Source: Gemmobacter aquatilis
GTDB lineage: Bacteria; Pseudomonadota; Alphaproteobacteria; Rhodobacterales; Rhodobacteraceae
Length of the DNA: 64,000 nucleotides
Assembly (NCBI RefSeq): GCF_900110025.1
Contig: NZ_FOCE01000001.1
Span: forward strand, 599,382-663,381
Direction of reading: 5' to 3'
A program made the translations under genes and the position numbers. The stretch's first letter is position 1. Each line of letters begins with the position of its first letter. Below, in pieces: positions 9,582-46,420 of the stretch. The notes below the pieces were generated by a model, which was not told the origin of the DNA, made no database searches, and saw only the letters and a program-made list of their open reading frames with translations.

Positions 9582-10400
9582 ATGTTCAGCGCCGAACGAT
9601 CCCGATCCCGCGCCAGTTCCGCCTTCGGGCTGCTGGCGCTGATCTTCCATGCCTCGGTCCGCAATATCCGCAAGGGTCATGGCAATGCCATGCTTGGGCT
9701 GGTGATGAACGTGGTCCAGACCCTGATCCTCGTCGCGGTGTTCTGGGTCATCTCGCATATCTTCGGCCAGCGCGGGCAGATCCGGGGCGACCCGATCCTG
9801 TTCGTGATGTCGGGCATCTTCATGTTCATGACCCATTCCAAGACGATGGGCGCGGTGTCGGGGGCCGAAGGGCCAACCTCTTCGATGATGCTGCACGCGC
9901 CGATGAACACCATCATCGCCATTGCCGCAGCGGCGCTCAGCACCCTTTACATCCAGATCCTGTCGATCTGCTTCGTGCTGTTCTTCTACCACGCCATCGT
10001 TTCACCCATCACCATACACGAGCCGGTGGGGGCCTTGGCCATGCTGCTCGTCTCCTGGGCCAGCGGCATCGGCATCGGCATGATCTTCCTGGCCGCCAAA
10101 CCCTGGTCACCCGACCTGATCGGCATCATCGTCAAGGTCTACATGCGCGCCAACATGATCGCCTCGGGCAAGATGTTCGTCGCCAACAACACCCCCAGCC
10201 GCATCCTGCAATGGTTCGACTGGAATCCGCTGTTCCACACCATCGACCAAGGGCGCGGGTTCATCTTCCTGAACTACAACCCGCATAACAGCTCGATCAG
10301 CTATCCGGTCTGGATCGCGGCGGCGACCATCGTGCTGGGACTGATGGGGGAATTCTTCACCCGCAAGCACATTTCCGCCAGCTGGAGCGCGCGCGGCTAA
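9582..10400 (+). CDS. ABC-2 type polysaccharide export permease (KpsM-like)
   Basis: This 272-residue inner-membrane protein has about six hydrophobic segments (first from LGLVMNVVQTLILVAVFWVI, last from VWIAAATIVLGLMG) and the ABC-2 membrane domain of polysaccharide exporters. The re-entrant WFDWNPLFHTIDQGRGFIFL near the C-terminus is like that of KpsM/Wzm family members. The frame is open far upstream, but only the ATG at 9582 has a good ribosome-binding site (AAAGAGG), and the upstream sequence is antisense to cysQ. It is divergent from cysQ. No ATPase partner is encoded next to it; dnaK follows after 235 bases. Exported substrate is inferred from the neighbouring glycan genes. Confidence 0.85.
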   Translation: MFSAERSRSRASSAFGLLALIFHASVRNIRKGHGNAMLGLVMNVVQTLILVAVFWVISHIFGQRGQIRGDPILFVMSGIFMFMTHSKTMGAVSGAEGPTSSMMLHAPMNTIIAIAAAALSTLYIQILSICFVLFFYHAIVSPITIHEPVGALAMLLVSWASGIGIGMIFLAAKPWSPDLIGIIVKVYMRANMIASGKMFVANNTPSRILQWFDWNPLFHTIDQGRGFIFLNYNPHNSSISYPVWIAAATIVLGLMGEFFTRKHISASWSARG

Positions 10401-18015: not shown

Positions 18016-18091
18016 GGGCCGGTAGCTCAGTTGGTAGAGCAGCTGACTTTTAATCAGCGGGTCACAGGTTCGAATCCTGTCCGGCTCACCA
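18016..18091 (+). tRNA. tRNA-Lys (anticodon UUU)
   Basis: The 76-base gene folds as a full cloverleaf. The acceptor stem GGGCCGG pairs with CCGGCTC through one G-T pair, the D arm begins with GCTCAG, the anticodon stem GCTGA/TCAGC encloses the loop CTTTTAA (anticodon TTT), and the T arm contains GGTTCGAATCC. The 3' CCA is encoded. The decayed prophage lies directly on its 3' side, consistent with integration at the tRNA 3' end, though I found no second copy of that end on the far side. Confidence 0.98.
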
Positions 18092-20614: not shown

Positions 20615-21219
20615 GCTGCCCCCCGCACAAATGCGCCCTGGGGATCGACGCGGGCAAGGAAGGCGTGTCGGTCGCTGGCGGGCAGCGTGTCCCACAGTTG
20701 CACCAACAGCCGCTTGCGCGTGTTCACCTTCACCGCTTCGTCGGTCAGCTGGGCCAGACAGGCTTGCAGATAGGCCAGCAGCTCGAACGGCGTAGCCATG
20801 CTGGCCCACCAGCTGGCTTCGTGTTCGATGTCCAGCAACGGCGGCAGCGGTGCCCCTCGGCGCAGCCGTTCCACCACCCCGCAGCAGATCGACAGTGCAT
20901 CGTCGGGATGCGCATTCTCCACCGCATAAGTGAGTGTGATTGCCCAATCATGCCGCAAGCGATATTCTGCCGCCAGATCGTCAACTTTATCGGGTTGTTT
21001 GGTCAGACCTGCCGCCCCGGTCGCGCCCGCCAGCGCGCCGGGGTTTTCCATTTCCGGGGCTTCGCCAAGAACATTCCGCGAAGACCCTGTGGCAGATTTG
21101 TGCCACGAATCAGCGGTCGTTCCCGTCTCGTTCACGGCGCTTGCGACCAGTTTCCGATCGGAAACGACATTTCCGCTTGCAAGAATCTTGGGCGTTTCGT
21201 AAAGCCCGCAGCGGGACAC
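20611..21219 (-). CDS. Prophage-associated hypothetical protein
   Basis: This 202-residue protein is not recognised. Residues 80-202 are helical and acidic ([73 protein letters not shown]) and translationally coupled to the ATPase by ATGA, so it probably belongs to the phage replication module. The first 60 residues are low in hydrophobic content. The GTG at 21219 lies inside the serC leader on the opposite strand, so the true start may be internal, or the 5' end may have been replaced by the integration event. Confidence 0.5.
21150..21165. promoter_or_regulatory. 16-bp perfect palindrome upstream of serC
   Basis: GTTTCCGATCGGAAAC is a perfect inverted repeat 91 bases before serC and inside the start of the opposing prophage gene. 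It could be an operator for either. No matching known site was recognised. Confidence 0.35.
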
Positions 21220-21255
21220 CTCTCCCCAACGAGAGGCTCATATCTGGAAGGATAC
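21204..21255 (+). promoter_or_regulatory. Candidate serC leader RNA motif
   Basis: Two adjacent hairpins lie directly before the serC start: a short CCCG-CAG-CGGG at 21205-21215 and CCTCTC/GAGAGG with a 6-base loop at 21219-21236. They are followed by CTCATATCTGGAAGGA, which includes the ribosome-binding site. Position and layout fit the serC RNA motif described upstream of alphaproteobacterial serC genes; identification is from memory of that family, not from a covariance search. Confidence 0.55.
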
Positions 21256-21256
21256 C

Positions 21257-22414
21257 ATGGCTGATCTCATCGCCCCGGCACAGCGCCCGGCAAACCCGCG
21301 CTTTTCCTCTGGCCCCTGCGCCAAGGTTCCCGGTTTCACCCTCGATCAACTGGCAGACGCCCCGCTGGGTCGCTCGCACCGTGCCGCCGTCGGCAAGGCA
21401 AAGCTGAAGCAGGCCATTGATCTGACCCGCGACATCCTCGGCGTACCCGCCGATTACCGCATCGGCATCGTCCCCGGTTCTGACACCGGCGCGGTGGAAA
21501 TGGCGATGTGGTCGCTGCTCGGCGCCCGCCCGGTTGAAATGCTGGCGTGGGAAAGCTTTGGCGAAGGCTGGGTCACCGATGTGGTGAAACAGCTCAAGCT
21601 CGACGCCACCGTGAAAAAGGCCGCTTACGGCGAGATCGTCGATCTGGCGACCGTCGATTTCGACAAGGACGTGGTGTTCACCTGGAACGGCACCACCTCG
21701 GGCGTGCGCGTCGCCAATGGCGATGCGATCCCGGCGGACCGCGCGGGCCTGACCATCTGTGACGCGACCTCGGCCGCCTTCGCGATGGATCTGCCGTGGG
21801 ACAAGCTGGATGTCGTCACCTTCTCCTGGCAGAAAGTGCTGGGCGGTGAAGGCGCGCATGGGATGCTGATCCTCAGCCCCCGCGCGGTGGAACGGCTGGA
21901 AAGCTATACCCCCGCCTGGCCGCTGCCGAAGATTTTCCGCCTCACCTCGAAGGGCAAGCTGATCGAAGGCATCTTCGTCGGCGAAACCATCAACACGCCC
22001 TCGATGCTGGCCGTGGAAGATTACCTCGTCGCGCTGAACTGGGCAAAATCGGTGGGCGGGCTGCAGGGCCTGATCGACCGCGCCACCGCCAATGCGCAAG
22101 TGGTGTGGGAGTTCTGCGCTGCCAATCCGTGGCTGCAAAACCTCGCGGTGAACCCGGCCAATGCCTCGACCACCAGCGTCTGCCTGAAATTCGCCGACCC
22201 GCGTATCACCGACGGCGCCACCTTCGCCAAGAACGTGGCGAAACGGCTGGAGAAAGAGGGCGTTGCCCTTGACGTGGGCGCCTATCGCGACGCGCCTGCC
22301 GGTCTGCGCATCTGGTGCGGCTCGACCGTCGAAACCGCAGATGTTCAGGCGCTGATGCCCTGGATCGCCTACGCGTTCGAGGCCGAAATCGCGGCGCTGG
22401 CGAAAGCCGCCTGA
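21257..22414 (+). CDS. serC: Phosphoserine aminotransferase
   Basis: SerC is the PLP enzyme that converts 3-phosphohydroxypyruvate and glutamate to phosphoserine in serine synthesis, and also acts in pyridoxine synthesis in many bacteria. The 385-residue sequence has the PLP-lysine region [19 protein letters not shown], the substrate-binding [12 protein letters not shown] near residue 16, and [18 protein letters not shown]. It matches the alphaproteobacterial form in length. The ATG follows GGAAGGATACC within the candidate leader structure. serA follows after 125 bases that contain a large inverted repeat. Confidence 0.97.
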
Positions 22415-45647: not shown

Positions 45648-45653
45648 TTGACA
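45648..45653 (+). promoter_or_regulatory. Possible -35 box of the small structured RNA
   Basis: A perfect TTGACA lies 7 bases after the VUT gene stop. No convincing -10 is found at 16-18 bases; ACCTTT at 45671 is the best. It would start transcription just before the candidate RNA at 45690. Confidence 0.35.
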
Positions 45654-45711
45654 ATCACCAGATCTGTGTCACCTTTCCCTTATCGGCAACACATTGAAAG
45701 GAGGTGATCCA

Positions 45712-45768
45712 GTGTCTAGAGTGATATTGGAGAGAGGTGTCGGGACAGTCGGGGGGCACGATATCTAG
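45712..45768 (+). CDS. Possible 18-residue leader peptide with extended Shine-Dalgarno
   Basis: GTG start, then MSRVILERGVGTVGGHDI and a TAG stop. AGGAGG ends 7 bases before the start codon, an ideal distance, and is part of the 17-base anti-16S match. There is no signal or membrane segment. It could be translated as a leader peptide or serve only to hold a ribosome. Not recognised. Confidence 0.35.
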   Translation: MSRVILERGVGTVGGHDI

Positions 45769-45837
45769 GGGCAACCCCTTGGAATCCAACCACTGATTGG
45801 GCTTGAAACCTAACTGGCCCATCTCCTTGGAACTCGG

Positions 45838-45872
45838 AAAGGGTCGCCGCACACCGGCGACCCTTTCTCGTT
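45838..45872. terminator. Strong terminator hairpin
   Basis: AAAGGGTCGCCG and CGGCGACCCTTT form a perfect 12-bp stem around CACAC, followed by CTCGTTTT on the plus strand. It closes the candidate RNA and lies 126 bases before arfB. Confidence 0.85.
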
Positions 45873-45997: not shown

Positions 45998-46420
45998 ATG
46001 CTGCGCATCACCGACTCCGTCTTCATCGCCGACTGGGAACTGAGCGAGAATTTCTCGCGCTCGTCCGGCCCCGGCGGCCAGAACGTCAACAAGGTGGAAA
46101 CCGCCGTCGAACTGCGATTCGAGGCGGACCGTTCGCCGCATCTGACCCCCGCCGTCAAAGCCCGCCTGAAACGCCTCGCCGGGCGCCGCTGGACGACCGA
46201 GGGCGCCATCGTCATCCGCGCCGAAGAAACCCGCAGTCAGGCCCGCAACCGCGAACTGGCGCAGGAACGTCTGGTGGAATTGATCCGCCAGGCCCTCGTC
46301 GCGCCCAAGCGCCGTATCGCCACCAAGCCGACGCTGGGCAGCCAGCGCCGCCGCCTCGCCGCCAAATCCATCCGGGGCGAGGTGAAATCGCTGCGCGGCA
46401 AGATCGAGGGCGAAGAATGA
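45998..46420 (+). CDS. arfB: Alternative ribosome-rescue factor ArfB (peptide-release factor homologue)
   Basis: ArfB (YaeJ/ICT1 type) hydrolyses peptidyl-tRNA on ribosomes stalled without a stop codon. The 140-residue protein has the catalytic GGQ in SRSSGPGGQNVNKVETAVEL (about residues 21-40) and a long basic C-terminal tail (KRRIATKPTLGSQRRRLAAK, KSLRGKI) that enters the empty mRNA channel. Length equals the family. It overlaps the following kinase-like gene by ATGA. The candidate structured RNA with anti-16S complement lies just upstream. Confidence 0.95.
   Translation: MLRITDSVFIADWELSENFSRSSGPGGQNVNKVETAVELRFEADRSPHLTPAVKARLKRLAGRRWTTEGAIVIRAEETRSQARNRELAQERLVELIRQALVAPKRRIATKPTLGSQRRRLAAKSIRGEVKSLRGKIEGEE

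Follow-up and report, generated by a model that had tools for sequence, protein, structure and literature searches.

A predicted stand-alone RNA of Alphaproteobacteria with a near-complete complement of the 16S rRNA 3' tail and a short open reading frame, possibly gated by ribosomes

The stretch of Gemmobacter aquatilis DNA analysed here (the window, 64,000 nucleotides) carries, at about positions 45683-45868 of the forward strand, an element that on the sequence evidence is an autonomous RNA gene and no chance match. We tentatively propose, at a little under an even chance, that it represents a ribosome-gated, autonomous structured RNA of Alphaproteobacteria, near CC2171 (RF01867), which works by ribosome docking. 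The components on which this reading builds are supported by the sequence: a near-complete 16S complement, a start codon one base behind it, a short open reading frame (ORF), a fold built with the ORF, and a terminator. There is no fixed partner gene next to the element across the class. A chance match is ruled out by the uniqueness of the site in the window, the sites in the organism's own genome, the kept start codon and the class-restricted distribution. An antisense 16S fragment is also ruled out: the match stops at CAG, 16S continues with CCGC, and a conserved start codon follows.

A sequence-only reading of this DNA had described a perfect complement of 17 bases to the 16S 3' tail, far beyond an ordinary Shine-Dalgarno (SD) sequence. 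The 17-mer, GAAAGGAGGTGATCCAG at 45696-45712, is the sole such site in the window even when 3 mismatches are allowed (shuffles give an expectation of 0.14). The assembly lacks the organism's own 16S end, and CTGGATCACCTCCTTTC matches there solely at the element, on the opposite strand. A search for the 16S end in 13 relatives gave a match in 3, and locus L186 of the congener G003 reads CTGCGGCTGGATCACCTCCTTTCTAAGGATG; the bacterial SSU rRNA model aligns to this locus with its 3' end. Since the proven SSU rRNA 3' end of the congener reads GGCTGGATCACCTCCTTTCTAAGG, all 17 bases pair with the 16S tail, and the earlier claim stands. In the own genome (3.96 Mb), four sites match AAAGGAGGTGATCC at 0-1 mismatch, and a start codon stands behind one of them, the element.

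The complement had also been placed at an ideal distance from an 18-codon ORF. The ORF of this length is present; the distance has to be restated, as the last G of the 17-mer is already the first base of the GTG start codon. The complement kept across the class spans about 15 bases, GAAAGGAGGTG[A/G]TCC, and is followed by one free base and then the start codon. We aligned 66 of the 69 Rhodobacterales elements (alignment A1), three being dropped because their predicted end lies beyond 205 bases. Positions 45697-45706 are invariant in A1, some rows of which were fetched by a pattern that itself fixes this stretch. Base 45707 is A in 41 rows, G in 23 and C in 2, so that looser relatives exist. 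A plain standby site, one of the functions suggested earlier, is unlikely because the complement directly abuts a conserved start codon.

Table 1. Predicted features of the element, in window coordinates
Feature	Position	Strand	Basis
-35-like box, TTGACA	45648-45653	+	TTG[AC]C at most 62 nt upstream in 53 of 63 Rhodobacterales elements
RNA (predicted ends)	45683-45868	+	5' end from -35 box and RF01867 model start (45688); 3' end from terminator
Hyper-extended SD, complement of 16S 3' tail, GAAAGGAGGTGATCCAG	45696-45712	+	16S end of congener
Micro-ORF, 18 codons, GTG...TAG, VSRVILERGVGTVGGHDI	45712-45768	+	kept start, length and stop
P1 5' strand (the SD); partner 45820-45828	45698-45706	+	fold; two main parts with 92.2% and 98.5% of cells paired
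H1 hairpin around start codon, 45708-45716 with 45723-45731	45708-45731	+	fold; 97.3% of cells paired
P2 5' strand, within ORF; partner 45790-45811	45735-45755	+	fold; both-sided changes in 12 of 18 pairs (helices 5-7)
H3 hairpin, 45760-45771 with 45776-45786; includes stop codon and GCARYCY-type loop	45760-45786	+	fold; both-sided changes in 9 of 11 pairs; 69.5% of cells paired
AACTGGCC, 3' half, predicted unpaired; candidate output site	45812-45819	+	fold
CATCTCCTT, internal mimic of 16S tail, P1 3' strand	45820-45828	+	fold, alignment
Rho-independent terminator stem-loop, then T-rich tail	45836-45868	+	both-sided changes in 14 of 18 aligned pairs (helix 9)

The proposal of an RNA element with a promoter-like site and a terminator is borne out by the fold, the kept -35-like box and the covariation of the terminator (Table 1). 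TTGACA is indeed found upstream at 45648, and a similar box is present in most Rhodobacterales elements; in 52 of the 53 that have TTG[AC]C (63 examined), it lies 47-53 nt ahead of AAAGG. The terminator stem, previously given as 12 bp, comprises 14 pairs (45836-45849 with 45855-45868). Between the -35 box and the RNA start, at 45649-45670, the window contains a partial inverted repeat (ACACAAAATCTGTGT-like), which may bind a regulator; a loose pattern of this repeat is found in 29 of 63 Rhodobacterales upstream regions.

The element had been called unrecognised. This is correct in so far as RF01867, which is catalogued as an sRNA (Caulobacter sRNA CC2171), matches the window with 32.7 bits (E 1.8e-5 in 301 bases), below its gathering score of 75; it is incorrect in so far as the element is a sub-threshold relative of this family. 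The model aligns over its full length (1-159 of 159) to 45688-45864, 5' core and 3' terminator included, and the two have an identical 5' core, AAAGGAGGUGAUCCAGUGUCU, their length and a terminator at the 3' end in common. They differ in that the model contains a closing helix of the CAUUGUC/GACAAUG type, whereas the window has an SD/anti-SD helix, and their middle parts are not alignable. The closing helix, in which codons behind the start pair with the segment before the terminator, is present in the folds of SHC-type elements and not in the window, where pairing of the SD (45698-45706) with 45820-45828 takes its place. (The clade names Rhodo, Sphingo, Brady, SS and SHC were coined in this analysis from peptide motifs.) Because the score lies below the gathering threshold and the model's closing helix is lacking, we regard the element as diverged from RF01867, to which it is related, rather than as a member. 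Rfam matches above threshold elsewhere in the window are a Ruegeria Cis2_sRNA (10142-10297, reverse strand), a serC leader (21209-21260, forward strand) and a tRNA (18016-18088, forward strand).

Conservation in relatives was confirmed, the DNA search detecting the element in 58 of 101 relative genomes. With RF01867 at E<=0.001, 61 of the 101 match, one of them above the gathering cut-off. The same model matched Caulobacter vibrioides alone among 14 named control genomes, and 5 of 8 named relatives at E<=1e-4, of which only Bosea passes the threshold (88.5). A scan of named genomes resulted in at least 119 stretches with the element. Among the matches listed (80 titles, sorted by what we take to be their taxonomy), 75 are alphaproteobacterial taxa, 3 are given just as Proteobacteria and 2 are Gemmatimonadota. 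The strict core AAAGGAGGTGRTCCNDTGTC is present in 65 of 385 evenly drawn Alphaproteobacteria genomes, with one copy each, and is missing from the majority (320 of 385); the reversed pattern gave 0. In a sample of the phylum, it was found in 70 of 135 members of the class versus 0 of 263 other Pseudomonadota. The complete congener G008 gave no match by DNA search or by RF01867, and the genomes G072 and G098 each contain a second RF01867 match, these being possible paralogues. Homology beyond the core is indicated by the common layout and by a GCARYCY hairpin motif located at the same offset in Rhodobacterales (49 of 69; 3.8 expected) and SS-type elements (18 of 22; 1.1 expected). Elsewhere this motif occurs in 0 of 32 SHC, 1 of 26 Sphingo, 0 of 7 Brady and 1 of 10 other elements.

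Seven IMG/VR stretches (L190-L196) also hold the core. A phage origin appears unlikely: six of them read as host-type elements, four of the Bradyrhizobium type and two of the VSHCH type, and the seventh has an unlike ORF of 71 codons. Some of these elements are located near the end of the viral stretch and may mark prophages integrated beside the element.

The ORF runs from GTG (45712-45714) to TAG (45766-45768) and includes AGA, ATA and GGG codons. A set of 166 elements (L002-L180, without duplicates over the first 90 bases and without loci that have fewer than 210 bases downstream) was collected with a pattern that demands NTG, and the evidence for the start codon is therefore taken from a search with this codon left open alone. 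The open pattern matched in 66 of 385 class genomes, and 65 of the 66 sites have a start codon (ATG 33, GTG 27, TTG 5) preceded by a free base; its reversed control gave 2 matches in the 385 genomes. An in-frame ORF of 14-31 codons is present in 163 of the 166 elements, the other two frames giving 33 and 42. Codon 19 of the Rhodobacterales elements (n=69) is TGA in 29, TAG in 22, TAA in 14 and another codon in 4. TGG is missing there, which corresponds to a Fisher p of 3e-8 if the rows were independent, which they are not; the shuffle controls likewise ignore relatedness. With its kept start codon, controlled length and interchanging stop codons, the micro-ORF looks selected for start, length and stop.

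Constraint on the encoded peptide appears weak in codons 2-12, where 65 of 136 cells of one-step codon variants (17 of 43 types) are synonymous versus a fraction of 0.30 expected, and none is visible in codons 13-18 (45 of 135 cells, 13 of 33 types, versus 0.32). Serine is found at codon 2 in 68 of 69 Rhodobacterales elements, with changing codons, and the peptides of different types have little in common beyond Met-Ser. Given this weak constraint, evolution seems to keep the act of translation more than its product, although the surplus of synonymous variants in codons 2-12 would allow for some role of the peptide. The element might instead be a short mRNA whose product, a micropeptide of about 14-31 residues, is functional, its strong SD providing high expression. 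We consider this unlikely: the kept start, length and stop, the serine and the synonymous excess are in its favour, but the types hardly share more than two residues, codons 13-18 look neutral and the ORF serves to build the fold.

The predicted fold of the window RNA has an energy of -82.7 kcal/mol versus -60.3 kcal/mol in shuffles, and is better than all 200 of them (z -4.74). A1 is a sequence alignment to which the structure of the element's own fold was applied, which favours its own structure over slid versions; 82.4% of the cells are paired, against 77.8% when shuffled and at most 53.3% when slid. The covariation test suggested earlier gave a positive answer, with both-sided changes in 36 of 65 pairs across the 66 elements. 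The cells with such changes number 250 versus 105.5 in shuffles, and 0 of 500 shuffles reach 250. The covariation supports a fold that incorporates the ORF. Variation is confined to one side in P1 and nearly so in H1, which is what an SD and a start codon that cannot change would lead one to expect, and the variation in CATCTCCTT mainly preserves pairing with the SD. Five of the eight positions of AACTGGCC are conserved at 90% or more in the 66 elements (A 60, A 63, C 64, G 64, C 60).

In a rough control on 163 of the 166 elements, in which some Rhodobacterales rows form their best duplex with bases other than those of P1, the segment ahead of the terminator forms a more stable duplex with the 5' part of its own type than with the 5' parts of the others. 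The values for own and other-type pairing are, in kcal/mol, -26.8 and -19.1 (SHC), -25.3 and -21.1 (Sphingo), -22.9 and -18.3 (SS), -23.4 and -18.8 (Rhodo), -20.9 and -18.3 (Brady), and -22.5 and -19.4 (other). In the predicted folds of L115 and L126 (Bradyrhizobium-type), the stretch CACCTC within the 14-codon ORF (..KRCHLAG..) is paired with the SD, and the ORF thus carries its own anti-SD.

Opening of the region from SD to start codon was calculated for 161 of the 166 elements. The median costs are 12.4 kcal/mol for Rhodo, 10.6 for Brady, 8.0 for other, 5.0 for Sphingo (8 of 24 above 9), 3.9 for SS and 3.7 for SHC; for the window RNA the cost is 14.1 kcal/mol. In the predicted folds, the SD is buried in Rhodobacterales and in the two Bradyrhizobium-type elements folded, and is more open in other types. 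According to these models, the closed ribosome site is a feature of lineages, while the complement, the start codon and the short ORF are general. Since the closed site is confined to some lineages, its invasion cannot explain the complement everywhere, and the Rhodobacterales median against 3.7-5.0 in three other types counts against closed-site invasion as a general account.

The predicted duplex with the 16S tail amounts to -31.0 kcal/mol for 17 bases and -26.8 kcal/mol for 15, compared with -11.2 kcal/mol for an ordinary 8-base SD. Complementarity to almost all of the free 16S tail at such a duplex energy, together with a weakly constrained peptide, would also fit a sponge, which captures 30S subunits, holds them on a futile mini-ORF and damps translation under stress. 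However, with a single strict copy in each matched genome the RNA would have to be expressed very strongly, and a sponge has no need for a kept stop codon, a covarying fold over the ORF or, in Rhodobacterales, burial of the SD; this explanation is quite unlikely. Very unlikely, in our judgement, is a sensor of special ribosomes, in which the hyper-extended SD favours those 30S subunits whose tail is exposed, such as subunits lacking a platform protein. As far as the consulted parts of the sources go, it has a precedent in the extended SD of rpsU in Flavobacteriales (PMC9976891), and SDs are uncommon in C. crescentus, being present at 24.6% of CDSs (PMC4117421); yet the ORF is not rpsU, and there is no sign here of hidden alphaproteobacterial tails.

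The gene upstream of the element encodes a VUT-family transporter (PF02592, 45018-45641). The next gene downstream (45998-46420) encodes a protein of 140 aa with an RF-1 domain (PF00472), consistent with arfB, as it had been named earlier. Of 45 genomes of the family (51 loci, 6 of them repeats; flanks of up to 1.5 kb), 44 have the VUT gene upstream of the element and 34 have arfB downstream of it. Outside the family, the neighbour genes differ, and a simple ORF caller placed the downstream gene of the 166 elements on the same strand in 82 cases and on the opposite strand in 73 (unknown in 11). A leader or attenuator of the downstream gene, here arfB, is hardly credible and was ruled out: a short ORF and a terminator do precede a gene that is arfB in most family genomes, but downstream genes lie on either strand, other neighbours are found outside the family, and the steady neighbour within it is the upstream VUT gene. 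A link to arfB is thus not supported. At locus L033 of a class relative, the element is located between what we take, from reading the protein sequences, to be a NudC-like and a dnaX-like gene.

For the ribosome-gated RNA, we infer docking, opening, gating and output as follows. 30S subunits would invade the RNA through the extended 16S pairing. In the Rhodobacterales branch, where SD and start codon are predicted to be buried, the opening cost of about 14 kcal/mol would be repaid by the 17-base duplex and not by an ordinary SD. The ribosome would then read the 18 codons, which supply the 5' strand of P2 and part of that of H3, and, because the ORF builds these strands, a translating ribosome must undo both helices. 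Docking and translation would dismantle the fold and make the conserved 3' half accessible, with AACYGGCC and the CUCC strand in it. The RNA would then be a switch between two states that responds to ribosome availability, and its output would be the freed 3' half, which probably acts by base pairing in trans; AACYGGCC, predicted to be unpaired, adjoins CAUCUCC, a likeness of the 16S tail. A more specific form, possible rather than probable, is an RNA switch with the ribosome as its ligand, in which 30S capture and translation of 14-31 codons, the peptide hardly mattering, refold the RNA and report translational capacity via the 3' half.

Ribosome profiling of C. crescentus found intergenic ncRNA regions to be untranslated, according to the part of that article consulted (PMC4117421); this statement counts against translation, and CC2171 may or may not be among those regions. 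Long SD-16S helices have been described in S. aureus, in the excerpt consulted (PMC13009471). CC2171/RF01867 is mentioned in the consulted parts of two articles, in a table row for MH_s33 of Mesorhizobium huakuii and in an Rfam list (PMC5596092, PMC11701678). Our literature searches on CC2171/RF01867 retrieved no function, 16S complement or translated ORF, which the founding paper may mention, and searching for the motif text brought up nothing relevant. The parts consulted of small-ORF papers on S. meliloti and B. japonicum contain nothing on the element.

The element would extend the RF01867 group to Rhodobacterales, which are missed at Rfam's threshold. If the proposed reading is true, an RNA listed as non-coding across a bacterial class serves as a conserved site for ribosomes to dock and has an obligatory micro-ORF, and how bacteria measure free ribosomes becomes directly testable.

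Leader-peptide attenuators of the trpL type have a fold that contains a short ORF and, behind it, a terminator. The window element shares the short ORF in a fold and the terminator, and differs from them in being without a linked regulated gene across the class, as the mixed strand of the downstream gene shows. Pos19 of R. sphaeroides is likewise a small RNA with a translated short ORF, from a related bacterium, but identity with Pos19 is ruled out by the latter's ORF in the 50-codon class (150 nt), its RpoE promoter and its restriction to R. sphaeroides strains, as reported in the part of PMC5036791 consulted. The Flavobacteriales rpsU genes with their extended SD resemble the element in the exceptionally strong 16S pairing before the start codon (PMC9976891, in part). 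In contrast to them, the window element is a structured stand-alone RNA that encodes no ribosomal protein, its ORF of 18 codons (VSRVILERGVGTVGGHDI) not being rpsU. Its 16S pairing of -31.0 kcal/mol (17 bases) or -26.8 kcal/mol (15 bases), calculated with an energy method that differs from that of PMC9976891, is stronger than the -13 kcal/mol criterion given for rpsU in the consulted part of that article.
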